Assembly: GCA_947177675.1 (NCBI GenBank)
Contig: CAMWVK010000008.1
Span: 1 to 13,846 of the forward strand
Length of the DNA stretch: 13,846 nucleotides
Origin: an uncultured Mucispirillum sp.
GTDB lineage: Bacteria; Chrysiogenota; Deferribacteres; Deferribacterales; Mucispirillaceae
Reading direction: 5' to 3'
The position numbers and the translations under genes were made by a program. Each line of letters begins with the position of its first letter. The stretch's first letter is position 1. Shown here in pieces: positions 1-13,838 of this stretch. The notes beneath the pieces were generated by a model that was given only the letters and a program-made list of their open reading frames with translations, was not told the DNA's origin and ran no database searches.

Positions 1-676
1 CACCTGTACCATGTTTTCTGTAATAATGTTTATTAAGAACATAATAAGGCAGTAGAGTAGCAGCAGGATTAATAAGCATTGTTTGATAATTTATTTGAGC
101 TATCTCTTCTAAAACAACCGCATTTTCCACAGCATCAAGCCCGCCTTTATCTGCACTGCCTCCCCATGTAAATGGTCCATGTTGCTTAACTAAAACAGCA
201 GGTATTTGCAGCCAGTCTTTATCTTTAAATGTTTCTACTATTACTTTGCCTGTATTTAATTCATAATCGCTTTCAACTTCGTCATAAGTTAATGCTCTAG
301 TACAGGGAATATCACCAAAAAAGTAATCTGCATGTGTTGTTCCCATAGCTTTAATTGGAATTCCTGCTTGAGCGTATGAAGTTGCATATTTAGAATGTGT
401 GTGGCATACACTATAAATTTGAGAGCATGAATGATAAATTTCTAAATGTGTTTTTGTATCTGATGATGGCTTTAATTTACCATCTGTAACTTTACCAGCT
501 AAATCCACAACAATCATATCCTGCGGCGACATTTTTTCATATTCAACACCAGATGGTTTAATAATAATATAATCTTCTACTCTGGCAGAAACATTACCCC
601 ATGTTAAAGTTATTAATCCCTGCTTATAAAGCTGTATATTTGCCTCATAAACTTTTTCTTTTATATTATCAAACAT
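1..676 (-). CDS. araD: L-ribulose-5-phosphate 4-epimerase (AraD, class II aldolase family), 3' end cut by window edge
   Basis: The reverse strand reads openly from an ATG at 676 to the window edge, giving 225 codons. Family members are about 231 residues, so only a handful are missing. The zinc-site motif CHTHS is near residues 91-95, with a further zinc His in KQHGPF (His166). The substrate-phosphate motif KPSSD is at 69-73 and TTHADYFFGD at 113-122, all characteristic of AraD. The readable end, NKHYYRKHGTG, matches the start of the AraD C-terminal tail; the catalytic Tyr expected there lies off the window. The family interconverts L-ribulose 5-phosphate and D-xylulose 5-phosphate in the cytosol. 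The start overlaps the preceding gene by 8 bp (ATGTTTGA contains its stop), implying translational coupling. Its place in a glycan operon rather than an arabinose operon suggests a precursor role (inference). A related class II aldolase activity cannot be excluded. Confidence 0.88.
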   Translation of the reverse strand, partial: MFDNIKEKVYEANIQLYKQGLITLTWGNVSARVEDYIIIKPSGVEYEKMSPQDMIVVDLAGKVTDGKLKPSSDTKTHLEIYHSCSQIYSVCHTHSKYATSYAQAGIPIKAMGTTHADYFFGDIPCTRALTYDEVESDYELNTGKVIVETFKDKDWLQIPAVLVKQHGPFTWGGSADKGGLDAVENAVVLEEIAQINYQTMLINPAATLLPYYVLNKHYYRKHGTG

Positions 677-1706
677 GCTTTTCTTCCTTTTTTATCATTA
701 GTGTATGTGATAACCCTGTTTTTAAATCATACTGTGGCTGCCAGCCTAAATCCATTAGTTTAGAAGCATCAAGAATAGAATCAAGTGACTTAGAATAACC
801 CTGATTTTCTATTTCATCTGGTATTTCAAACTGAAGAGATACTTCTGCAAGTTCAGATAAAGTTTCAGCATATTCTCTGATAGAAGCAATAGAGTTTGGA
901 TTTGCAACATTATAAACCTGACTGTCTTTACCATATAAAATAACATAAAGCATAGCATATACTGCATCTGCCACATAGCAGTATGTCCTTTTCTGCAAGC
1001 CTTCACTTTTCATAATTATTTTTTCACCATTTAAGGCATTTCGCAAAAACTGTGCATCTGCTCTAGAACTTTCACTTGTAATTGCAGCACCATAAACATA
1101 GCAAAGGCGTAATATGTTTGCTTTTATATTATATTGATGATTATAACTCATACATAATGTTTCTGCTGCTCGTTTAGATTCTGGGTAGCAGGAACGCACA
1201 AGTTTTGAATCTATCATACCAAAATCATCTTCTGTAAATGGTTTATTAGTATTATTCCCATATACTTCTCCAGTAGATATGTATAAAAAGCAGGTGGCAG
1301 TATCTTTTATCATTTCTAATAAATTCATAGTCCCTGTTAAGTTTGTTTTCATAGTGCCGACAGGGTCTTTTGAAAAGGCAAGTGGGTGTGAATTACTTGC
1401 TGCATGTATAATATAGTCAGCTTCATATTTTTTCTTTAAAGGTTCATTTAAATTCTGCTCTATAAAACATAAATTTTTATTTGCTTTAAATCTTTTTTGT
1501 AATTTTTCTAATTTTGAAGATACAGCATATGCATATATATTTTGAGAATATATAGTATTATACCATATTATAAAATCTACTAAATAAGAAGCAACCAGCC
1601 CTGTTGCACCTGTAATAAAAAAAGACTTATTATTAAGTTTTAAAATTTTATCGCCTAATAAATCTACAAGTTTTTTATATTCATTTTCTAATGTGCTGAC
1701 TGTCAT
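669..1706 (-). CDS. NAD-dependent epimerase/dehydratase family protein (extended SDR, nucleotide-sugar type)
   Basis: This 345-residue protein has an extended-SDR layout. A Rossmann dinucleotide-binding motif TGATGLVA lies at 32-39, where the usual third Gly is Ala39. HAAS follows at 101-104, the active-site strand STGEVYG at 144-150, and the catalytic Tyr-Lys pair in YPESK at 174-178. The spacing and the CYPESKRAAE segment resemble UDP-glucuronate decarboxylases and NDP-hexose 4,6-dehydratases. The STDEVYG of true 4,6-dehydratases is STGEVYG here, so the aspartate position is Gly. It should oxidise and modify a nucleotide-linked sugar in the cytosol; the substrate is not determinable. It starts 1 bp after the cytidylyltransferase stop, and its ribosome binding site AAAGGA lies within that gene's last codons. 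A CDP-linked substrate is therefore plausible (inference). Confidence 0.85.
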   Translation of the reverse strand: MTVSTLENEYKKLVDLLGDKILKLNNKSFFITGATGLVASYLVDFIIWYNTIYSQNIYAYAVSSKLEKLQKRFKANKNLCFIEQNLNEPLKKKYEADYIIHAASNSHPLAFSKDPVGTMKTNLTGTMNLLEMIKDTATCFLYISTGEVYGNNTNKPFTEDDFGMIDSKLVRSCYPESKRAAETLCMSYNHQYNIKANILRLCYVYGAAITSESSRADAQFLRNALNGEKIIMKSEGLQKRTYCYVADAVYAMLYVILYGKDSQVYNVANPNSIASIREYAETLSELAEVSLQFEIPDEIENQGYSKSLDSILDASKLMDLGWQPQYDLKTGLSHTLMIKKEEKHV

Positions 1707-1707
1707 T

Positions 1708-2400
1708 TTAAATTCCTTTTAATAAGGCTCTAAAAATTGCAAGGTCTTCTGATGTTGTTAATTTAATATTTTTCTCAGACCCTTTTGAAAAATATACAAT
1801 CTGTCCAGTTTCAACTAATAATGTGCAGCTGGCAACAGAATTAGTGATACCCATTTCTTTTGCTTTTTTATGTGTATCTAAAATACTACCTAGTGTAAAC
1901 CCTTGTGGTGTTTGAGTTCTTTTTAAGTTATCTCTAGGATATGCAGAAACAGCAGAAGCTCCGTCTACAGTTTCAAGCATTGCTTCATGACATGGAATGC
2001 AGACAACAGCATTGCCCTTTTCTCTAGTTACATTGATACATTCAGAAATTATCTCACTAGAAACCATAGGGCGAATAGCATCATGAATTAATACTATATC
2101 TTCTCTGCTGTAAAACTTTGCAAGTTCATCTAATCCGTTTTTAATAGACTCCTGTCCTGATTTACCAGAAGGGGCGATATGTTTTAGCTTTGTAATATTA
2201 TATTCTTTTGCATAATTTTGTAGGATAATTTCCCAGCCTTCAATACATACCACAGATATAGCATCAATATTTGGATGTTTCTCAAATGCTTCTAATGTAT
2301 AAATAATAATAGGTTTATCATTTACCGTTATAAATTGTTTTGGTATTGCTGACAACATTCTTGCCCCAATACCACCTGCAATAATTAGTGCAATATTCAT
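1708..2400 (-). CDS. IspD/TarI family cytidylyltransferase
   Basis: The 230-residue length is typical of the family. The nucleotide-binding signature lies near the N-terminus (IAGGIGARM at 7-15 and PKQ at 20-22). HDAIRP is at 106-111, RTQTPQGF at 161-168 and NIKLTTSEDL at 211-220; these are the conserved blocks of IspD and TarI. The family transfers CMP from CTP to a sugar or polyol phosphate (methylerythritol 4-phosphate for IspD, ribitol 5-phosphate for TarI). YPRD before the RTQTPQ block resembles the TarI branch, while RTQTPQ itself is IspD-like, so the sequence does not settle the substrate. Context favours a glycan role: the upstream neighbour carries a CDP-polyol phosphotransferase domain and the downstream neighbour is a nucleotide-sugar SDR. 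A strong ribosome binding site AAGGGGGTGG (2413-2404) overlaps the previous gene's stop codon. Confidence 0.85.
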   Translation of the reverse strand: MNIALIIAGGIGARMLSAIPKQFITVNDKPIIIYTLEAFEKHPNIDAISVVCIEGWEIILQNYAKEYNITKLKHIAPSGKSGQESIKNGLDELAKFYSREDIVLIHDAIRPMVSSEIISECINVTREKGNAVVCIPCHEAMLETVDGASAVSAYPRDNLKRTQTPQGFTLGSILDTHKKAKEMGITNSVASCTLLVETGQIVYFSKGSEKNIKLTTSEDLAIFRALLKGI

Positions 2401-2411
2401 AAGCCACCCCC

Positions 2412-4694
2412 TTATTTAATTTTTAATTTTGTTTTTAATATTCCAGTTAGTCTTTCACTATTGTTTATATTATTATATTCAGAAGGGAAAAACTTTTCTA
2501 ATATTTTACTTTTTAATTCTTGATGACGGTCTGGGTTGTTATAATTTTCTTCTATTGAGAATATTGTTTCTTCCCAGGTTTTTGTAATATCGCCTGCACA
2601 ATTTTCTTTATATGGCATATTAAATGTAGTTTCTTTCTTCTCATAAGTATCTAAATCAAAAGCAAAGTAAATAACTGGTTTTTGTGTAATTAAAAAGTCA
2701 TAACCAATGGATGAATAGTCTGTTATAATCTGCGAATATTCATATAATGATGCATAAATATCTTTTTCATCACTAACTTCAATGCGGGGATAAACAGCTA
2801 TGGCATTTTTAATACGAGATGTGTAATCTCTCCAAGTATTAGGGTGCAGCCTAAGATACATAGTAGCATCAATTTTTTCTAATAAATTATTAATTTTATC
2901 AAGATTTTTTATGAAATCTTTTACCATAAATTGCTCTGTTTCAGGTTTCCACCTGTATGTTGGAGCATAAAGTATTTTATATTCAGTAACTTCTTTTTCT
3001 ATATTTTCATACATAATAATATTTCTAGGATATCCACATGCAAGCTGTGCATTTTCTGGTATTTTCCAAGGGTTTGCAACAATATCCCTAAATGGCTGTC
3101 CTGGGCATACCATACCATAATATTCTTCAAAAAGTTCTCTAAAAGGTGCTTTAAAAAAATATTTAACTGGCTTTATGATTTTATTTATAATTCCATCATC
3201 ATTATGGATTAAAATATCTGATGATAATCTTGCACCGGGAACTGTTGTGTTTGGGAGTTCATCACCTATAGGTATCATACTTTTAGGACCAACACCATGC
3301 CATAAGTTTACAAATTTTGTTCCAGCATTAAATCCGTATCTTGGTGTATAATCACTCATTTTAAAATGGTCAGAAACAGCTAATTTCGCCCTAACCATTG
3401 TCCAAAAACCTGCAAAAGAGTTCATTTTATAACATGGCTTTTTTTCTTCATTCAGCTGTTTAAATACTTTATCATTCATTGTAATCCATACAGCCTTTAT
3501 TTCAGGATGATTTTTTATAATATATTCATAAAAATACTGAGTATTATCCATATAAGATGTTCTTAAAAACCCAGAAAAAACCCAAAGATTTTTCTTTTTA
3601 GGAATAAGAGCTAACCACCAGTAAAGCGAAAATCTAAATATTTTCAAAATTATATTCTTAATGTTTCTAATCAATGATATAAATGGGTTTAAAATTTTTA
3701 ATATTTTCCCATTATTTAATAAATCAGCATTCTCTTTACCTAATATATTTACCTGATTTAGCCTTATATTAAATCCATAAAATAGATTTTTAGTCATTTG
3801 ATAAACTTCTGGATATTGCTCTTCTAGTGATGTCAGTAAATCCCATCTATCATTTTTAATTATTGCATTTGCATAGTTTTTAACTTCTGTCCATAATCTG
3901 CCTTGCAGTTTATTTATACAAAAACTATCATAATGTTTTATATAGTAATCTATACATGTTGTTAATATTTTAAAATATTCTAGTCTTGTATTTAAAAAGT
4001 GGTCATCCATAGATATTTTATTGTAAAAAACACCAGAAACATTTCTGCGGTATACACTCATTACTTCATTTAATATATACATATAACCTTGCCCCATGTG
4101 CAGTACAATCATAGGTATGTCCCCAATAATACCATCTGTTTTTAAATTTGCAGGTATTTCAATATTATTCCACCTAATAAAAAGTGATGAAGTATGGGGC
4201 CATTCATAAAGAATGTCTGATATAATAAGTTTATTTTTTGATTGTAGATTATCATGATAAATAAAATTCTTCTTGGCATAATAATCATACAATGACCATT
4301 CTTTATCAGCCTGAATCTTTACTTTATGTGCACAAATATTTATATCATCATTTGCTTCCATAAAATCATACTGCTTTTGAAGTTTATTTTCATCTGTCCA
4401 AAAATCATCACCATCACAAAATGCTACATATTTTGAAGTAACCCTGTCACATATATCCATAAAATTTTCTAAAGCTCCTATATTAGAAGAGTGTTTGATA
4501 TGCTTAATAATATCAGGATATTTTTTTGCATATTCTGCAACAATTTCACTTGTTCCGTCAGTAGAGCCATCATCACCAACTAATACTTCATAGCCAAAGT
4601 TAGTTTTCTGCATTATAAAGCTGTCAAGTGCTTCCATAATATACTCTTTTTGATTATATGTAACACAAACTACTTGAACTTTTATTTCACTCAT
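2412..4694 (-). CDS. Two-domain transferase: GT2 glycosyltransferase fused to TagF-like CDP-glycerol/CDP-ribitol phosphotransferase
   Basis: The 760-residue protein has two catalytic regions. Residues 1-about 270 form a GT-A fold GT2 domain, with VCVTYNQ near 9-15, DDGSTDGT at 41-48 and the metal-binding DGDD at 94-97. A hydrophobic, basic linker (about 340-368, including FRFSLYWWLALIPKKK) may associate with the membrane. Residues about 370-760 are TagB/TagF-like, with NLWHGVGPKSM near 463-473, LYAPTYR at 575-581, RLHPN at 615-619, ITDYSS at 657-662 and KPVIYF at 672-677. Members of this second family transfer glycerol phosphate or ribitol phosphate from CDP donors to growing teichoic-type polymers at the inner membrane face. 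The cytidylyltransferase encoded 11 bp downstream could supply the donor (inference). The GT2 half is a close paralogue of the GT2 encoded at 6018-6980. It starts 2 bp after the upstream gene's stop. Confidence 0.88.
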   Translation of the reverse strand: MSEIKVQVVCVTYNQKEYIMEALDSFIMQKTNFGYEVLVGDDGSTDGTSEIVAEYAKKYPDIIKHIKHSSNIGALENFMDICDRVTSKYVAFCDGDDFWTDENKLQKQYDFMEANDDINICAHKVKIQADKEWSLYDYYAKKNFIYHDNLQSKNKLIISDILYEWPHTSSLFIRWNNIEIPANLKTDGIIGDIPMIVLHMGQGYMYILNEVMSVYRRNVSGVFYNKISMDDHFLNTRLEYFKILTTCIDYYIKHYDSFCINKLQGRLWTEVKNYANAIIKNDRWDLLTSLEEQYPEVYQMTKNLFYGFNIRLNQVNILGKENADLLNNGKILKILNPFISLIRNIKNIILKIFRFSLYWWLALIPKKKNLWVFSGFLRTSYMDNTQYFYEYIIKNHPEIKAVWITMNDKVFKQLNEEKKPCYKMNSFAGFWTMVRAKLAVSDHFKMSDYTPRYGFNAGTKFVNLWHGVGPKSMIPIGDELPNTTVPGARLSSDILIHNDDGIINKIIKPVKYFFKAPFRELFEEYYGMVCPGQPFRDIVANPWKIPENAQLACGYPRNIIMYENIEKEVTEYKILYAPTYRWKPETEQFMVKDFIKNLDKINNLLEKIDATMYLRLHPNTWRDYTSRIKNAIAVYPRIEVSDEKDIYASLYEYSQIITDYSSIGYDFLITQKPVIYFAFDLDTYEKKETTFNMPYKENCAGDITKTWEETIFSIEENYNNPDRHQELKSKILEKFFPSEYNNINNSERLTGILKTKLKIK

Positions 4695-4696
4695 TA

Positions 4697-5974
4697 CTAA
4701 ACTCTCCAGTCAATAAGGGTAGATAAATTATCTACTCCAAAAACAGAAATATTTTTATTTTTCATAACTTTTTGTCGCTCTGCAAAAGAATCATCTATAA
4801 ATACAGCATTATTTTTAGTAATATATTTTGATTTTTCATCTGTATCTGCTATATGAATAATTTCATTAAAAAGATTTTTTGAAATACATAAATCATCTAA
4901 TTTTTGATAAATATCACCAGCATGCTTAGTTAAAAGAATGATTTCTTTTTTTTGATTTTTAAATTGATACAGCAGCTTAACAGCATCAGTATTTACTCCT
5001 GTTTGAAGAGAAATTACATCATCAAAATCAATATAAACAGTATCAAAATCTAAATCTATTTTATAACTTGCATATAATGCTCTATCTATTTGTATTTCAT
5101 AGTTATTTCTAATAATCTCTACATCACAGTCCATCATATCAAAGAGACTTAATTGAGCAAAATTAACACCAAGCCCTAAAGATAAATCCATAGTTCCGGC
5201 TATTCGTGGTGCTATTTCCATTAATACAAACTCACCATCTGTATTTTCTTTTACTTGAAAAAACCAAACACCTTGAAATGATAAAACCTTATTTATTTTT
5301 TCTGCAAGTTCTATAAATTTTGGGTTATTAATAGTTTTTGAAGAAACACTTATGCCATTGCTTATGCGAATACGCTGCCTGCCCATTGCAAAAAGAAGTT
5401 TGCCATGTCTATTTGTAAAGCAGTCTATTGTGTATTCTCTTCCGGGCAGATATTCCAAAATTAATAATTCACTATTTTTAGATAAATAAAAATCAAGCTC
5501 ATGTTTGTTAGATACTTTACAGGTGCCTTTAGAACCCTGTCCCACTGATGGTTTTAAAAAAATAGGATATTTTTCTATATTATCTTTTTGAAATAATTTT
5601 GGTGTTGGTATAATACCCTGAAATTTTTTATATGTTTTTTCTTTAGAACGGCATATTTCATTTGTTTCTAGTGATGATGTTATTATTTTTGCTTTAAACT
5701 CATGTGCATGTTGAGCTAGTTTTAGAACTACACTGTCATGGGCTGGAAAAATAAAATCTATTTTGTAATCATCGCAAACTTTTTGCAGTGCTGGAATAAA
5801 TGCAGCATCTTCAACAAAAGGAATATTTGGAATATATGTTTTAAATACATATTCACCATGGTCAGAAATAGATGATGCACCAACCATTTCAAAATGAATA
5901 CTGTCTTTTAATGCTCTATTTATCTCTAGTGCTATTTCACTTCCGCAGGGAAATACTAAAACACATTTTTTCAT
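4697..5974 (-). CDS. ATP-grasp domain protein fused to a C-terminal HAD-like domain
   Basis: The protein is 425 residues. Residues 1-about 300 form a carbamoyl-phosphate-synthase-like ATP-grasp module: an N-terminal Rossmann-like segment (CVLVFPCGSEIA), the ATP-binding stretch PIFLKPSVGQGSKG at 137-150, and the metal-binding block VLMEIAPRIAGT at 250-261. From about 312 a HAD-like region begins. YIDFDDVI at 314-321 fits the DxDx(T/V) nucleophile motif, LLTKH at 347-351 fits motif II, Lys381 or Lys383 could serve motif III, and FIDDSFAER at 392-400 fits motif IV. ATP-grasp enzymes join a carboxylate, via an acyl phosphate, to an amine or other nucleophile; HAD domains are usually phosphatases. 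In this operon it may decorate a sugar or polyol precursor (inference). Substrates are unknown. A GAAGGGG site lies about 14 bp before the ATG, which is long spacing. Confidence 0.82.
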   Translation of the reverse strand: MKKCVLVFPCGSEIALEINRALKDSIHFEMVGASSISDHGEYVFKTYIPNIPFVEDAAFIPALQKVCDDYKIDFIFPAHDSVVLKLAQHAHEFKAKIITSSLETNEICRSKEKTYKKFQGIIPTPKLFQKDNIEKYPIFLKPSVGQGSKGTCKVSNKHELDFYLSKNSELLILEYLPGREYTIDCFTNRHGKLLFAMGRQRIRISNGISVSSKTINNPKFIELAEKINKVLSFQGVWFFQVKENTDGEFVLMEIAPRIAGTMDLSLGLGVNFAQLSLFDMMDCDVEIIRNNYEIQIDRALYASYKIDLDFDTVYIDFDDVISLQTGVNTDAVKLLYQFKNQKKEIILLTKHAGDIYQKLDDLCISKNLFNEIIHIADTDEKSKYITKNNAVFIDDSFAERQKVMKNKNISVFGVDNLSTLIDWRV

Positions 5975-6017: not shown

Positions 6018-6980
6018 TTAAATAATAAATGGTATAAAGCCTGTAACTCTTTGTTTAACTTTATTAATAGTATATTGTATTTTTGATACTGCACCTTTAT
6101 TTTCTGCAAATGCAGTTTTTAATATTTGTGGATAAAGATTTAGCAGTTTATTTAATGTCTCTTTATCATTGTTACGCAAAGATGCTAATGCAGTATTACG
6201 CACCATGTGTATTTTTTCTTTGCTTTTATCTGCTCCAAAATATTTTTCAATAGATTCATAAAAGCAAAGGTGCTCTATACCATAATTTAAAAACCATTTG
6301 TCTAAAAGATTTACTCCATACCATATACCATTTATATGTTTTCTATAAACTGCCATAACATCTGGCAAAAAACATATTTTTCCTTTTGATGCATGTAATA
6401 AATGCAGGTAATAATCAACTGGAAGAATATTTTTAGGGATTATATATTCTATACTGTTTTTATCATTAAAAACCCAGCGATACATAACTGAATTTGTCTG
6501 AATAAAGTTATATTTCAATAAATCATTAATATTTAAAGTTTTTTTGTAAAAGCGATGTTTTGGCTTTGGAAAAATTACATTTTTTTGTGAGCCATCTTCA
6601 TATTTAATTAAAACAGGGTGAAAACAGATGCTGCAGTCTTTATGTGTATCCATAAAATCAGCCTGTTTTTGAAGTTTATTTTCATCTATCCAGTAATCAT
6701 CACCATCACACATTGCTACATACTTTCCTTTACATGCACTTGCAGCATCTAAAAGATTTTGATAACTGCCTGTATTATGGCTGTGAAATATTGGTTTAAT
6801 AATATCAGGATATTTTTTTGCATATTCCTTGATAATATCTTGCTGCCCGTCAGTAGAGCAGTCATCAGCAATAATAGCTTCAAAAGGGAAGTTTGTTTTT
6901 TGTGTTACAAAACCTTCTAATGTTTGCTTAATAAAGTCTGCATGGTTGTATGTAACACAGCATACTGAAACTAAGGGCAT
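6018..6980 (-). CDS. GT2 family glycosyltransferase
   Basis: The 320-residue protein begins directly with the GT-A nucleotide-binding fold. SVCCVTYNH lies near 5-13, DDCSTDG at 39-45 and the metal-binding DGDDYW at 92-97. The C-terminal part (about 230-320) is helical and basic, as in many membrane-associated capsule GT2 enzymes, and ends in a short hydrophobic stretch (TGFIPFII). It should add one sugar from a nucleotide donor to a lipid-linked or growing glycan at the cytoplasmic membrane; donor and acceptor cannot be predicted. The first ~110 residues closely match the N-terminal domain of the 2412-4694 product, including a shared WxDENKLQKQxDFM block, so the two are paralogues. The start overlaps the aminotransferase gene by 10 bp, and the AAAGG site lies inside that gene, which points to coupled translation. 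Confidence 0.9.
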   Translation of the reverse strand: MPLVSVCCVTYNHADFIKQTLEGFVTQKTNFPFEAIIADDCSTDGQQDIIKEYAKKYPDIIKPIFHSHNTGSYQNLLDAASACKGKYVAMCDGDDYWIDENKLQKQADFMDTHKDCSICFHPVLIKYEDGSQKNVIFPKPKHRFYKKTLNINDLLKYNFIQTNSVMYRWVFNDKNSIEYIIPKNILPVDYYLHLLHASKGKICFLPDVMAVYRKHINGIWYGVNLLDKWFLNYGIEHLCFYESIEKYFGADKSKEKIHMVRNTALASLRNNDKETLNKLLNLYPQILKTAFAENKGAVSKIQYTINKVKQRVTGFIPFII

Positions 6981-8056
6981 AACAAACCTTTAATAATAAG
7001 TTCAGAAATTTGTTTAACACTTTCATGGGGTAAATCTGGATATAATGGCAGGCATGCAATGCGTAAAGCAATATCTTCAGATACAGGGCATTGTGCTGTT
7101 TTTTCTATATATGGTAAATGATTAAGTGATGGATAAAAATATCTGCGAGGATAAATTTTATTATCATTAAGGATAGAAAAGACATTTAATAATTCTTTTT
7201 CTGATTTAAAAACTACTGGATAATAAGCATAATTATACTGTAATTCAACTTGTTCTTTAGGTCTTTGAATATGCTCTTTTAGTATGGTGTCATATATGTT
7301 AGAAACAGCTTTACGACCTGCAATAATTTTAGATATATAAGGAAAATTAGCTAAACCCATTGCTGCATGAAACTCAGACTGTTTTCCATTAATACCAAGT
7401 GTAATATGGTCATCTTTATTGTGACCAAAACGCTTTTGTAATTCTAATTTATCAGATACTGCTTTATCTTTGACTATACAAGCTCCGCCTTCAACTGTAT
7501 GGAAAAGTTTAGTAGCATGAAATGATAATGTGGAAATATCTCCATAGCTTGATAAAGCCCTGCCTTTATATACTGATCCAAATGTATGAGCTGCATCATA
7601 AATGACTTTTAAGTCATATTTATCTGCAATAGAATTAATTGCATCTATATCGCAGGCATAGCCAAAAACATGGACAGCCATAATAGCTTTTGTATCTTTT
7701 GTAATTGCAGCTTCAACTTTACTGGCATCTATTGTAAAATTATCTGGCTCTATATCAACAAATACTGGTTTACATTTTTCCCATAATATACTAGATGTGG
7801 TAGCAACATAAGAAAAAGGGGTAGTAATAATTTCGCCATGAGTTATATCTAGTGCAGCCAAAGCAAGTTGCAAAGCTATTGTGCCATTTGTAACATAATG
7901 TATATTTTCAACACCTAAAAACGAACGCAGTTTTTCTTCTAAAGCATATACACAAGAGCCAGTATTAGTTAAAATTCTACTTGCAAATATATCTTTTACA
8001 TAATGCATGTATTCATCAAGTGCAGGAGTGAAAGATTTTGTTACATAAATGTTCAT
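6971..8056 (-). CDS. DegT/DnrJ/EryC1/StrS family PLP-dependent sugar aminotransferase
   Basis: The protein has 361 residues from the ATG at 8056. The frame can be extended to a TTG at 8065, but the ATG start (MNIYVTKSF) matches the family N-terminus and is preferred. The cofactor site is clear: TNGTIALQLAL near 56-66, the PLP-stacking/ring-nitrogen segment VIYDAAHTFG (Asp154), and the Schiff-base lysine in SFHATKLFHTVEGG (Lys183). The family transfers an amino group, usually from glutamate, to a keto group of a nucleotide-linked sugar in the cytosol. The SFHATK...EGG form occurs among VioA/FdtB-like sugar aminotransferases, but regiospecificity cannot be assigned. The SDR encoded in the same operon could provide a keto-sugar (inference). 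It is the first gene after the TA-repeat promoter, with a predicted leader of about 36 bases. The ribosome binding site is weak (GGTTGGT). Confidence 0.9.
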   Translation of the reverse strand: MNIYVTKSFTPALDEYMHYVKDIFASRILTNTGSCVYALEEKLRSFLGVENIHYVTNGTIALQLALAALDITHGEIITTPFSYVATTSSILWEKCKPVFVDIEPDNFTIDASKVEAAITKDTKAIMAVHVFGYACDIDAINSIADKYDLKVIYDAAHTFGSVYKGRALSSYGDISTLSFHATKLFHTVEGGACIVKDKAVSDKLELQKRFGHNKDDHITLGINGKQSEFHAAMGLANFPYISKIIAGRKAVSNIYDTILKEHIQRPKEQVELQYNYAYYPVVFKSEKELLNVFSILNDNKIYPRRYFYPSLNHLPYIEKTAQCPVSEDIALRIACLPLYPDLPHESVKQISELIIKGLLCP

Positions 8057-8099
8057 AATTACCAACCATAAATCAAAAATTTTATACTATAGCAGAGTA

Positions 8100-8127
8100 A
8101 TTATATATATATATATATATATGTCAA
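8100..8127 (-). promoter_or_regulatory. Consensus sigma70 promoter of the glycan operon, with a TA-repeat spacer
   Basis: On the reverse strand a perfect -35 box TTGACA (8127-8122) is followed after 16 bp by a perfect -10 box TATAAT (8105-8100). Transcription would start near 8093, about 36 bases before the aminotransferase ATG. Both hexamers are exact matches and the spacer is pure TA repeat. A second -10-like string (TATAGTATAAAA) lies further downstream without a matching -35. The promoter points at the seven-gene leftward operon. Confidence 0.8.
8102..8121 (-). repeat. (TA)10 dinucleotide tract between -35 and -10; likely phase-variation repeat
   Basis: Ten uninterrupted TA units on the reverse strand start right after the last base of TTGACA. 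The final two units form the first four bases of TATAAT, so the 16-bp spacer is eight TA units. Gain or loss of a unit by slipped-strand mispairing would change the spacer in 2-bp steps (14, 16, 18) while leaving both boxes intact. The known precedent is the hifA/hifB promoter region of Haemophilus influenzae. The tract is seen directly; switching is inferred. Confidence 0.85.
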
Positions 8128-8139
8128 GTTAAAAATTAA

Positions 8140-8153
8140 ATATTGCTCAATAT
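8140..8153. promoter_or_regulatory. 14-bp palindrome upstream of the operon promoter (operator candidate)
   Basis: ATATTGCTCAATAT is made of perfect 6-bp arms (ATATTG/CAATAT) around a central CT. It begins 13 bp upstream of the -35 box, a position suited to an activator or to a repressor contacting upstream DNA. In such AT-rich DNA a chance 6-bp dyad is possible, though the GC-containing arms make it less likely. No regulator in the window is an obvious partner. Confidence 0.35.
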
Positions 8154-8314
8154 CAATGTAAGAGTATAAGACAAATGTTACAAAAATAAGTTTTATTACT
8201 AAAGATAAAGTTGATATGAGTTAATTGATAAAATATATTATATGTTTATATTTAAATAATAAATCTGTAGATAGTTGTATTTTATATATCACATTTTTAT
8301 TCCTGCTTCTTACA

Positions 8315-8340
8315 CCTAGCTGTATATACATCTAACTAGG
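8315..8340 (-). terminator. Weak stem-loop after the ATPase gene (possible terminator)
   Basis: In the leftward transcript CCUAGUU can pair with AGCUAGG (7 bp including one G-U) around a 12-base loop whose GUAUAUAC is itself self-complementary. It lies about 60 bp past the ATPase stop. No U-run follows, so intrinsic termination would be inefficient and some read-through toward the glycan operon is possible. Confidence 0.3.
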
Positions 8341-8402
8341 CTAAACACTTTATTATAATCACATTTTTAAGTTGTTCAAATAAGATTTTTTGATTTACAT
8401 TT

Positions 8403-9635
8403 TCATTCCCACATTGCATACATAGGCACAGCCAGCATATTTTCACCAAAAGAAAGAGTATTTTTACCAGTATAAAGTATGATACCTTTAAAATCACTGT
8501 TTTTTGCAATATTCTTCTCAAACCATCTTATATGTTTAAAATCATCACTGCTTATATTGCTGCCTGCTTTCACTTCTACTGCATATAAATTATTATTTTC
8601 ATTATCCTGCAGTATAAAATCTATCTCATGACCAGCATTATCTCTAAAATGGTAAATGCTGTATTCTCCATTATAATAATCTACCAGTGCTGTAAGCTCG
8701 TGAAATACAAAAGTTTCTATAAGTTTTCCTGAAATATCCTGGTCATATCTGACTTTATCCATAGTATAGTTTAAAACAGATGTAATAATTGCAGTATCAG
8801 TCATAAATAGTTTTGGTTTTTTAGTAACTCTCTCATAGTCTGTTTTTGTAAATGCTGGCAGCTGTTCTATAATATACATCATTTCAAGCAGTGTAAGATA
8901 TTTATTAAAAGTAGGTTTTTCAATAGACAGGGCACTTCTTATTGCATTTTGTTCCATATATTTAGAACTCCATGCAGCAGTAGTTTCTATAAGTTTTTTC
9001 ATATCCTGATGGTTTCTAATTTTTTCTATATCTACTAAATCTTTTTCTAATATGGCATTAATATAGTCTTTACACCAGTTTTTAATATCTTTTATATCAT
9101 AGCCTAATGTTTCAGGATAACCGCCTTTTAAGGCAATGTCTAAAATTTCTTCCTTGCCGTTATATTCATAACTTTTTTGAAAATTTAAATTTTTAAGATT
9201 TTCAATAAATACTGGTTCTTTTTCTAATATTTCCCCTTGAGAAAATGTGCGTAATAATATGCGGCCAATTCTTCCTGCCATAGATTCACTTACCTGTGGA
9301 AGAGCCTGTATATCAGCACTGCCAGTGATAATATATCTGCCCATTCTGTTATCTTCATCAACAATTTCTTTTAATGCAGTAATGATAACAGGTGCTTTTT
9401 GAACTTCATCTATAATCATAATATCTTTATTATGTGTAAGAAAATGTTTAGTATCAGCAATACATGCAGCAAAACTTGTGCTGTTATCCATTGTATGATA
9501 TATGCAGTCATATTGTGCTGTAATACTTTTTGCGGCAGTAGTTTTGCCACACTGTCTAGCACCAGTAATCTGCACAATTCTTCGTTTTTGTCGTAAATAT
9601 TCAATATTTTTATTCTGCCATCTGCCAAGTGTCAT
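8403..9635 (-). CDS. AAA family ATPase with DUF4143-type C-terminal domain
   Basis: The 410 residues match the usual length of this family. The N-terminal P-loop ATPase has Walker A GARQCGKT at 25-32, Walker B IMIIDEVQ at 72-79 and a sensor-like IITGSA at 102-107. AGRIGRILLRTFSQGEI (120-136) is typical of the family's arginine-rich segment. The C-terminal DUF4143 part includes FVFHEL near 309-314 and a PD-(D/E)XK-like block, HEIDFIL (336-342) followed by YAVEVKAG (351-358), giving Asp339, Glu354 and Lys356 as candidate nuclease residues. These proteins are widespread and often multicopy; their role is not established, and nuclease activity here is only suggested. It sits alone between glycan genes, with tandem repeats overlapping its likely promoter. 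The ribosome binding site is weak (GCAGGT). Confidence 0.9.
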   Translation of the reverse strand: MTLGRWQNKNIEYLRQKRRIVQITGARQCGKTTAAKSITAQYDCIYHTMDNSTSFAACIADTKHFLTHNKDIMIIDEVQKAPVIITALKEIVDEDNRMGRYIITGSADIQALPQVSESMAGRIGRILLRTFSQGEILEKEPVFIENLKNLNFQKSYEYNGKEEILDIALKGGYPETLGYDIKDIKNWCKDYINAILEKDLVDIEKIRNHQDMKKLIETTAAWSSKYMEQNAIRSALSIEKPTFNKYLTLLEMMYIIEQLPAFTKTDYERVTKKPKLFMTDTAIITSVLNYTMDKVRYDQDISGKLIETFVFHELTALVDYYNGEYSIYHFRDNAGHEIDFILQDNENNNLYAVEVKAGSNISSDDFKHIRWFEKNIAKNSDFKGIILYTGKNTLSFGENMLAVPMYAMWE

Positions 9636-9676
9636 AATATAACCTGCTTTAAAAGTAAAGTATGCTTTATTGAAGC

Positions 9677-9705
9677 AGTATAATATAATTATGTTGAAAA
9701 GTAAA
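9677..9705 (-). promoter_or_regulatory. Probable promoter of the ATPase gene, -35 within the tandem repeats
   Basis: On the reverse strand TTTACT (9705-9700) and TATACT (9682-9677) are 17 bp apart, matching the sigma70 consensus at 4/6 and 5/6. The -35 lies in the first 23-bp repeat unit, so anything binding the repeats could control it. Transcription would start near 9670, about 35 bases before the ATG. A further repeat-core remnant (AAAAGTAAA, 9651-9659) lies just downstream of that start. Confidence 0.45.
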
Positions 9706-9782
9706 ATAGAATTATGTTAAAAAGTAAAATAGAATTATGTTGAAAAGTAAAATAGAATCATGTTGAAAAGTAAAATAGAATT
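9691..9782. repeat. Four tandem 23-bp repeats upstream of the ATPase gene
   Basis: Units at 9691-9713, 9714-9736, 9737-9759 and 9760-9782 share the form ATGTTGAAAAGTAAAATAGA plus ATT. Unit 2 has one change (GTTAAAAAG) and unit 3 one change (final T to C). The last unit runs into the stop codon of the glycosyltransferase gene. They fill the gap between that gene and the ATPase promoter. There are no spacers between units, so it is not a CRISPR array. Likely roles are operator sites or a slippage-prone tract. Confidence 0.9.
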
Positions 9783-11649
9783 ATTTATCACCGCAATAAC
9801 TGAATGTATATCCGTTATATTCAGCAGTATAAACCCACAGCCTTTCTATTGCGTGAGCTGTTGTTCCGTCTGCCTGCCCTTTTTCGTTAGGAAAGTTATC
9901 TGAAAGTATTGTTGTAAAAAGCGGCAGCACTGCATCAACCCTTGCCCAGAACATATTACCAACAGGGAAAACAATATTATTTACAGGTAGTTTTATATCA
10001 ATATCCAGCTTTTGCAGCACATTTTCTGCTAAATCTTTATTTAATCCCCAGTGGATAGCATTTTCCAGATTATGAAATGGTTTAGGGAAAACTATTCCAA
10101 GCCCTTTATTCATTTCAAGGTTTTTAATAATATTTTCTATATTTTCTCTATTGCCAAAAAGTGAGCCAAAAAGATATTCCCGCCAGTTATCTCCAAAAAT
10201 ATCTATTTTTGATTTTTTAGTATGTATATGACATATAAATTTATATTTTCTAACATATTTACTCATTTGTGCGATAAATGGGTAAATATCTCTGCCTTTA
10301 TTATCATAAAGTTCAACTATAATATTTACTGCATTAGAATGGCTGTTAAAATAATTTCTAATATATTCTGCCTTTTCTTCATTATCAGTAGATATATAGC
10401 AGTCAAAAGCATAAGGGATTTTATTTATTTCTGTAATAATATTTTCAAGTAAATCAAGATAAAAAATATGTATCTGCAGGCATATTTGTGATTTGCTGCA
10501 CATTTCTTCAGGCATATTCTTTTTGTATGATGAAAGTTTTTTGCCATATATTTTTTTATTAAATACAGCTCTATACATGGTGTTTAAAAAGGCATATCCT
10601 GTTTTTTTCTCAGGGGCAATATGGCTGTATTCATCCCAGTTATTAAAGGAATCTATAAACAAAAATCTTTCATTTTCATTAAAATTATCTCTGAGAAAAC
10701 TGCATTCAGTTTTTATCCAGTTATAAAAAATATCAAGGCTGTATTTATAAACTGATGGTTCATTTTTATAAAGAGTATCTTTTCCATTGATAATTGTTTT
10801 ATAATATGGTTTGTCTGATTTTACAGGATGGTTGCAGAATAAATGTGCCAGATAGTCATAACTGTATAATAAACCTTGTATTTTTTTATTAATGTATGAA
10901 ATGCCATTTGATGCAATAGATGGCATTTTATCAGTATTTGCAGAGTATATAAATCTTGATACTTTATCGTTTTTAAAATCAGTAAAATGGAGTATTCTGC
11001 ACCATATTTTGAAATCCTTAATATTGTGTGATATTATACTGTGTGCAGAATTAATAAAATCATTAATATCTTTATAGTTTTTCAGCCTGCGAATATCTAA
11101 AATAATAATATATTTGTCATCAAGTTTTATCATTTTAGAAAAATCAGTAATATTTAATACAGTATTTATATCATTAGCTGTAAGACAGGCATCAAGGCTT
11201 AAACAGAAAGGGTATGTTTCATCGCACAGGTTTAATGCACTTATAAAGTTTTTATATTTATTAGTATCATTTATTTCATAGCAGAAAGCATATATCTGGT
11301 ATTCTTTTGCAAGTCTTATATGATAATTTATTCTTTCAGTTGCATTGTTACTATATACAAGTGGTATTCTTGGTGTGTAATGGTTTAAATAAAGTGGTTT
11401 TCTGCTATTAATTGCTGCAATATCAGTCTGTGTAACACTGTAAAATGTTACAGTTTTTATATCTGTGCTTATAGTATTTGATGGAATATACTTTGCCTGA
11501 TAAAAACAGTCAAAGGAATATTTGCTTAAATGTCTACTGGCAATAATATTTTTTATGAATATGTCAACTTTTTTATAAGTAGACTTAAAGCCAGTATATT
11601 TAAGTGAAAAGAAAAATTTCTTTATTAAATCATAATACCTATTATACAT
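9781..11649 (-). CDS. WbsX-like and RgpF-like (rhamnan synthesis F) fusion glycosyltransferase
   Basis: The protein has 622 residues in two regions. Residues about 65-360 resemble the WbsX/GT99-type domain, though divergent. LYLNHYTPRIPLVY is near 86-99, RLAKEYQIYAFCYE at 112-125, YPFCLSLD at 146-153, and FIDSFNNWDEYSHIAPEKK at 331-349, which mirrors the family's 'NEW.EG..LEPD' block. Residues about 388-610 match RgpF: QIHIFYLDLLENI near 392-404, NKGRDIYPF at 450-458, HIHTKKS at 474-480 and NWREYLFGSLFG at 488-499. Such proteins act in O-antigen, capsule or rhamnan assembly, in the cytosol or at the inner membrane. Linkage and donor cannot be predicted. It is separated from the main operon by the ATPase gene and has its own promoter candidate. 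The start ATG lacks a good ribosome binding site, so the exact N-terminus is less certain. Confidence 0.85.
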   Translation of the reverse strand: MYNRYYDLIKKFFFSLKYTGFKSTYKKVDIFIKNIIASRHLSKYSFDCFYQAKYIPSNTISTDIKTVTFYSVTQTDIAAINSRKPLYLNHYTPRIPLVYSNNATERINYHIRLAKEYQIYAFCYEINDTNKYKNFISALNLCDETYPFCLSLDACLTANDINTVLNITDFSKMIKLDDKYIIILDIRRLKNYKDINDFINSAHSIISHNIKDFKIWCRILHFTDFKNDKVSRFIYSANTDKMPSIASNGISYINKKIQGLLYSYDYLAHLFCNHPVKSDKPYYKTIINGKDTLYKNEPSVYKYSLDIFYNWIKTECSFLRDNFNENERFLFIDSFNNWDEYSHIAPEKKTGYAFLNTMYRAVFNKKIYGKKLSSYKKNMPEEMCSKSQICLQIHIFYLDLLENIITEINKIPYAFDCYISTDNEEKAEYIRNYFNSHSNAVNIIVELYDNKGRDIYPFIAQMSKYVRKYKFICHIHTKKSKIDIFGDNWREYLFGSLFGNRENIENIIKNLEMNKGLGIVFPKPFHNLENAIHWGLNKDLAENVLQKLDIDIKLPVNNIVFPVGNMFWARVDAVLPLFTTILSDNFPNEKGQADGTTAHAIERLWVYTAEYNGYTFSYCGDK

Positions 11650-13421: not shown

Positions 13422-13838
13422 ATGGAAAATGATTGCATATTTTGTAAAATTATTGCAGGTGAGATACCATCCTGTAAAGTATATGAAGATGATAACTTTT
13501 TAGCATTTATGGATATTAATCCTGCTGCTTTCGGTCATACTCTTGTTATACCAAAACAACACTGCCGTAATCTGTTAGATACTCCAGATAATGTTGGTGC
13601 TGGTTTTTATCCTGTGCTTAAAAAGGTGGCAATAGCTGTAAAATCAGCTTTTAATGCAGAAGGTATATATATGTTTCAGCAAAATGAGCCTGCTTCTGGT
13701 CAGGAAGTGTTTCATTCTCATGTTCATATTGTTCCAAGATATAAAAATGATAATTTTGGAAAACATACTCCTGCAAGATTAAAAGTAGAAATTTCTAAAA
13801 TAGCAGAAGATGCAGAAAGTATTAGAAAATACATATAA
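13422..13838 (+). CDS. HIT family protein (histidine-triad nucleotide hydrolase)
   Basis: The complete 138-residue protein has the N-terminal CIFCKIIAGEIP signature (Cys5 and Cys8, the possible zinc pair with later His residues), the FMDINPAAFGHTLVIPKQH strand region (29-47), and the catalytic histidine triad HSHVHIVPR at 98-106 (His98, His100, His102) preceded by SGQEVF. This is the Hint/HIT1 branch, which hydrolyses purine-nucleoside phosphoramidates and related adenylylated substrates in the cytosol. Its physiological role is often unclear in bacteria. The ribosome binding site AGAGGTG lies just upstream of the ATG. It appears to be a stand-alone housekeeping gene, not linked functionally to the glycan region. 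Confidence 0.93.
   Translation: MENDCIFCKIIAGEIPSCKVYEDDNFLAFMDINPAAFGHTLVIPKQHCRNLLDTPDNVGAGFYPVLKKVAIAVKSAFNAEGIYMFQQNEPASGQEVFHSHVHIVPRYKNDNFGKHTPARLKVEISKIAEDAESIRKYI

Follow-up and report, generated by a model that had tools for sequence, protein, structure and literature searches.

The window (the whole stretch of DNA that was analyzed, 13,846 nt) contains a probable promoter in which exact -35 and -10 hexamers are separated by 16 bp of pure TA repeat, with an operon of glycan genes downstream. Our tentative preference, held with slightly less than even confidence, is that this is the core promoter of an exchanged glycan operon that is slippage-prone in this lineage, and that the tract is incidental and not a conserved contingency locus. 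Ten genomes of the genus were compared, among them the window's own assembly, G000 (329 contigs, 1,877,679 bp, 86% complete), and its nearest relative in the set, G006 (one contig, 2.35 Mb).

Probable promoter, operon, and flank in the window

The features of the promoter and operon are as follows.

8122..8127, minus strand: -35 hexamer TTGACA, exact (promoter scan; same letters in G006)
8106..8121, minus strand: 16-bp spacer of eight TA units (spacer in G006 also 16 bp, with 3 substitutions)
8100..8105, minus strand: -10 hexamer TATAAT, exact (promoter scan; same letters in G006)
8102..8122, no strand: unbroken TA tract of 10.5 units, 100% matches (tandem-repeat scan and genome-wide count)
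8057..8099, minus strand: 43-nt leader from the -10 to the ATG (11/43 positions differ from G006, no indel)
6971..8056, minus strand: DegT/DnrJ/EryC1/StrS-type sugar aminotransferase, first gene, ATG at 8056 (Pfam)
6018..6980, minus strand: family 2 glycosyltransferase (Pfam)
4697..5974, minus strand: ATP-grasp protein (Pfam)
2412..4694, minus strand: glycosyltransferase 2 fused to a CDP-glycerol glycerophosphotransferase domain (Pfam)
1708..2400, minus strand: IspD-type cytidylyltransferase (Pfam IspD above cut-off)
669..1706, minus strand: NAD-dependent epimerase/dehydratase (Pfam)
2..676, minus strand: class II aldolase/ribulose-5-phosphate 4-epimerase-like protein (AraD), truncated by the contig end
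8157..8191, plus strand: 35-bp end remnant of a dispersed element, outer end 29 bp upstream of the -35

The first-pass annotation had described exact TTGACA and TATAAT boxes around a 16-bp spacer consisting of nothing but TA, within an uninterrupted (TA)10 tract. We confirmed both points: in the direction of transcription, the -35 box, spacer, and -10 box occupy 8127-8122, 8121-8106, and 8105-8100, and the tract extends over 10.5 units. The core anatomy also supports its proposal that one TA unit amounts to 2 bp of spacer and that a change of one unit would touch neither box. A short tandem repeat placed between -35 and -10, the arrangement of promoter-spacer repeat phase variation, was found here. 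The site matched 12/12 hexamer positions, the highest score in the window, where 113 promoter-like sites were counted in all (against a shuffle mean of 94.8, sd 10.8). No plus-strand promoter was present at the TA tract among the best 60 of those 113 sites. A divergent, overlapping promoter pair on one tract, as at hifA/hifB of Haemophilus influenzae, was not found; the gene upstream is co-directional.

A first-order Markov model built on the window gives an expectation of 0.0005 TA runs of 21 bp per 1.88 Mb; with one observed, the tract is far above chance. It is the sole run of (TA)≥8 in G000. Across the 10 genus genomes there was one other such run, G005:C8:52540, which lies within an open reading frame and was dropped as a promoter for that reason. 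The hexamers are a different matter. The pattern TTGACA-N14-20-TATAAT yielded 20 pairs in G000 vs 22 for the reversed pattern, so exact hexamers alone are not above chance, and we rejected them as proof of a promoter. Given the TA tract, the chance of both exact hexamers abutting it is about 1e-4, a value computed post hoc from base composition.

Seven co-directional, tightly packed genes lie downstream of the promoter, the last one truncated where the contig stops, and the corresponding operon of G006 has at least 11; the earlier count of at least seven co-directional polysaccharide genes is borne out. The cytidylyltransferase at 1708..2400 scored below the cut-offs of the NCBIfam ispD and ribitol-5-phosphate cytidylyltransferase models. 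In G006 the operon continues with an MBOAT acyltransferase (Pfam), followed by three genes whose translations were read as an SGNH-like protein and the permease and ATPase of an ABC system. This gene content suggests an ABC-exported polysaccharide, presumably located at the cell surface.

The operon is 96.8% identical to that of G006 over 8.1 kb. Third-position difference, determined for six of the seven genes, was 2.0-5.6%, vs 22% for the HIT-family gene at 13422-13838, the sole reference gene. Because the operon is so much closer to G006 than the HIT-family gene is, these data suggest that it was exchanged recently between the G000 and G006 lineages. Database matches to the HIT protein that carry a name include Calditerrivibrio, Deferribacteraceae, and Deferribacterales (47-56%), as well as a Nanoarchaeota record (63% over 78%), Parcubacteria, and others; kinship groups are in keeping with Deferribacterales, and the genus is presumably Mucispirillum. 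A close orthologue of the aminotransferase beyond G000 was found only in G006 (96%) among the 10 genus genomes; the best matches in the other eight were ≤34% identical, two of those eight genomes having a completeness of just 57% and 75%. The closest cluster of aminotransferase sequences has 67 members. Relatives that carry a name, at 29 loci, were spread over Alphaproteobacteria, Gastranaerophilales, Bacteroidetes, Firmicutes, and other groups, with best segments 29-71% identical; those at 64-71% were in Alphaproteobacteria, Gastranaerophilales, and Elusimicrobium assemblies. Horizontal spread of the operon or its aminotransferase has probably been both wide and recent.

Upstream, a gap of 346 bp separates the operon from a co-directional AAA/DUF4143 ATPase gene at 8403-9635. 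Directly upstream of that gene, at 9651-9784, is a 23-bp tandem repeat of about 4.7 copies. Further copies of the element end at 8157-8191 were seen at ten places in G006 and at one in G000:C13, and each of these eleven leads into one shared reading frame; the element is probably an insertion sequence. It was also considered as a mobile promoter and rejected, since its end falls outside the block conserved with G006. In G006 the corresponding -35 box has another dispersed repeat terminating 26 bp upstream of it (L054, about 9077-9367), which presumably resembles the final part of an IS30-type transposase gene. The flanks of the two promoters appear to have been rearranged independently.

Comparison with the sister genome

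The G006 promoter has identical boxes, again a 16-bp spacer, and zero indels between the -35 and the ATG, and the start codon of the aminotransferase is at the same position. Changes between the two genomes number 0/12 in the boxes, 3/16 in the spacer, and 11/43 in the leader. The three spacer substitutions break the TA run in G006, so the pure TA promoter tract is present in one assembly, while in the one relative with a close copy of the operon the spacer has the same length but a substituted sequence; no variant in unit number was seen. As far as these alignments go, what is common to both species is the boxes and their distance, without the repeat. At the leader's rate, zero changes in 12 box positions has a P of 0.04 (Fisher p 0.10), and the statistical weight of box conservation is modest to weak. 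BLAST similarity upstream of the gene stops at the first base of TTGACA and covers the -35-to-ATG block only; an ungapped comparison of the two genomes beyond the -35 gave nothing clear. Divergence jumps at the start codon, with 14/71 positions differing in the -35-to-ATG block vs 35/1086 in the adjacent gene. Recombination with a junction close to the ATG would be consistent with this jump, as an incomplete explanation. Taken together, these data make a real promoter of constrained length likely, but not a conserved switch, because the pure repeat is not maintained between the species.

The operon could instead be served mainly by read-through from the ATPase gene at 8403-9635 or by another start in the 346-bp gap. 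A simple terminator scan found no site in 8057-8402, a promoter-like site scoring 10/12 lies at 8379-8352, and the exact hexamer pairs are, as noted, no commoner genome-wide than the reversed pattern. However, the gene upstream of the operon in G006 is a different one and divergent, so there the operon needs its own promoter, and the upstream similarity is confined to the -35-to-ATG block. We regard a main promoter elsewhere as improbable.

For the core promoter of an exchanged operon, the reading that we prefer, both the unchanged boxes beside a changed leader without indels and the 43 nt from the -10 to the shared start codon count as support. As proposed, a core sigma-70-type promoter would drive a horizontally exchanged surface-polysaccharide operon, and RNA polymerase would require both exact boxes about 16 bp apart, a distance kept in both species. 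The G000 lineage has a pure TA microsatellite for a spacer, and replication slippage, the mechanism known for hifA/hifB, is expected to change its length in occasional cells. One unit fewer would leave a 14-bp spacer, predicted to be off, and one unit more an 18-bp spacer, predicted to have reduced or altered activity; the window sequence is the 16-bp state, predicted to be active. The placing of 16 bp close to the active state is an analogy with hif, in which 10 TA units give a 16-bp spacer; the primary work on the hifA/hifB promoter is reportedly that of van Ham in 1993. We infer promoter activity, slippage, and the resulting expression change in G000. The poly-C spacer promoters in the same genomes, described below, suggest that spacer-length variation matters in the genus.

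Another TA-rich promoter, that of a secreted-protein gene in three species (G005, G001, and G007), has a net 1-nt change from the -35 to the ATG. We had considered it as a one-unit TA change between species and dropped that candidate when the alignment gave a net 1-nt gap. It carries no sign of frequent TA-unit changes and counts against slippage. These three TA-rich spacers without pure repeats, together with the mixed A/T spacer between the same boxes at the same distance in G006, favor the view that the promoter is an ordinary one whose spacer, like the genome, is AT-rich; pure TA would then be a chance or mutational state that does not vary meaningfully and at most eases melting. Such a reading has to contend with a 21-bp pure TA run at an expectation of 0.0005 per genome and with the general tendency of long dinucleotide runs to slip. 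We consider it unlikely.

Poly-C promoters and C/G runs in the genus

A second class of promoter, with a C run in the spacer (e.g., TTGACA-TT-C9-ATGA-TATAAT), was first noticed among the exact genus promoters listed. The pattern TTGACA-N0-8-C6+-N0-16-TATAAT found 35 sites, spread over 9 of the 10 genus genomes, vs 1 for the reversed pattern, and in 45 genomes of the order it found 1 further site, in G011. With the run set at C7+ and the search extended to 384 genomes, there were 42 sites, namely 35 in the genus, 1 in G011, and 6 in other phyla (5 genomes in a set of 334); the reversed C7+ pattern occurred twice, once in the genus and once elsewhere. The exact-box search located five of these promoters in G000, at C44:7881, C46:8178, C60:47, C74:2077, and C168:4561. 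None is on the window's contig, C8, and the window promoter itself has a TA spacer in place of a C run. G006 has seven sites.

Spacers and runs were tallied over 34 distinct sites in the loci retrieved for this purpose, with identical contexts merged and one base off allowed per box. Spacer lengths were 14 bp (3 sites), 15 (23), 16 (5), 17 (1), and 19 (2), and the runs were C7 (1), C8 (1), C9 (27), C10 (4), and C11 (1). By hand count, TG stood one base before the -10 in 23 of the 34. Wide length variation was not seen in these promoters, most being C9 with a 15-bp spacer, and between one pair of probable orthologues the length is different (C9/15 bp in G000 vs C10/16 bp in G006, 83% identity).

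About two-thirds of the poly-C promoters precede lipoprotein-like genes. A lipobox was found in 20/31 frames of ≥80 aa downstream of them vs 21/313 other frames (Fisher 9e-14, a value that is too small because homologues lack independence and some of the background frames, all of them read from the first ATG, are doubtful). The lipobox rule was a simple one, and L122 and L184, which look lipoprotein-like by eye, were counted as misses. The C run is present upstream of homologues down to 26% identity, in a search that started from the runs themselves. Profile scans of ten poly-C-driven proteins gave one with RCC1 repeats above the cut-off and nine without any match above it.

C/G runs also occur inside reading frames. 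G006 has 23 C7+ runs on the plus strand, of which a minority of 4 are accompanied by both promoter boxes; others are in reading frames. The ten C-run frames that were scanned, some of them incomplete where cut by the ends of the stretch examined, comprised an ATP-grasp protein, a histidine kinase, a GT9 protein, an M66 peptidase, two sulfatase-like proteins, the MBOAT protein of the operon discussed here, and a PKD protein, while the remaining two had no match. C/G runs of 8-10 lie within frames of G006 (e.g., L200, which is the MBOAT gene, L194, L199, L185, and L188), glycan-modifying genes among them, and the MBOAT acyltransferase gene of the window operon's G006 counterpart carries an in-frame G9 tract. 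These in-frame runs are candidate frameshift switches.

The first-pass annotation had taken the TA tract for a likely phase-variation switch of a whole glycan operon. A selected, maintained switch, in which cycling of the unit number turns the operon up or down, would explain why the genome's single long TA tract sits exactly between two exact boxes, with a predicted surface-glycan operon, a usual kind of target for such switches, downstream. The many other candidate contingency tracts in the genus, including the MBOAT G9 of G006, favor it as well. However, G006 keeps the 16-bp length and loses the repeat; TTGACA(TA)5..TATAAT was found in the window's own genome only, 1 of the 10 in the set; and poly-C, unlike TA, recurs upstream of diverged homologues, with the qualification that this search began from the runs. 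We consider a maintained switch possible but would wager against it, ranking it second to the lineage-specific, slippage-prone core promoter. What stands of the earlier claim is the slippage-prone anatomy; the pure tract is not kept in G006, and the slippage-type promoters that recur in the genus are poly-C. The poly-C promoters look like better phase-variation candidates in the genus than the TA tract of the window. A broader view, for a genus that is probably Mucispirillum (gut Deferribacterales), joins C7-C11 promoters of surface lipoprotein families, in-frame G/C runs in glycan genes, and the window operon as a dinucleotide version into one genus-wide system of promoter-spacer contingency; we hold this to be an even proposition.

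For comparison, the C run of the meningococcal opc promoter lies between the -35 and the -10, and porA is a further meningococcal example.

Known systems and meaning for the genus

In the sections of the source available to us, hifA/hifB of H. influenzae carries a (TA)9-11 tract, and strain R2866 an interrupted hif variant, (TA)4ATTA (PMC2651432). The window promoter resembles hif in having a TA tract of about 10 units that is proposed to set the -35/-10 distance, with genes for a presumed surface structure downstream. It differs in that hif is a divergent pair with documented length variation, whereas the window promoter faces one direction, precedes a glycan operon, and showed no variation in its one assembly. 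The match to hif that had been drawn from the sequence holds for the tract and fails for the divergent arrangement. Judged by this anatomy, hifA/hifB is the right analogue for the window promoter.

The opc promoter of Neisseria meningitidis had 11 C in the parent vs 12 C in high expressers, according to the part of the report available (PMC3447861). Repeat length within the promoter sets expression of opc, and the genus poly-C promoters resemble it in layout. Unlike opc, the window tract is TA, and the genus poly-C promoters mostly precede lipoprotein-like genes. Campylobacter has poly-G/C contingency tracts, as given in the available portion of PMC8355987, and the in-frame runs of G006, including those in glycan genes, are like them. 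Tracts of that type act by frameshift, in contrast to the spacer change proposed for the window promoter.

Among the titles and abstract openings returned by a literature search, there was no description of phase variation for Mucispirillum, the presumed genus of these genomes, poly-C promoters included. The terms "phase" and "homopolymer" were absent from the main text of the Mucispirillum genome paper on a term search of the text as available (PMC5285517).

If the TA tract slips, a change of one unit could alter the whole surface glycan and, with it, encounters with phage, immune defenses, and the niche. The poly-C promoters lead to a hypothesis that sequencing can test, namely that the genus may diversify its surface lipoproteins by spacer slippage.
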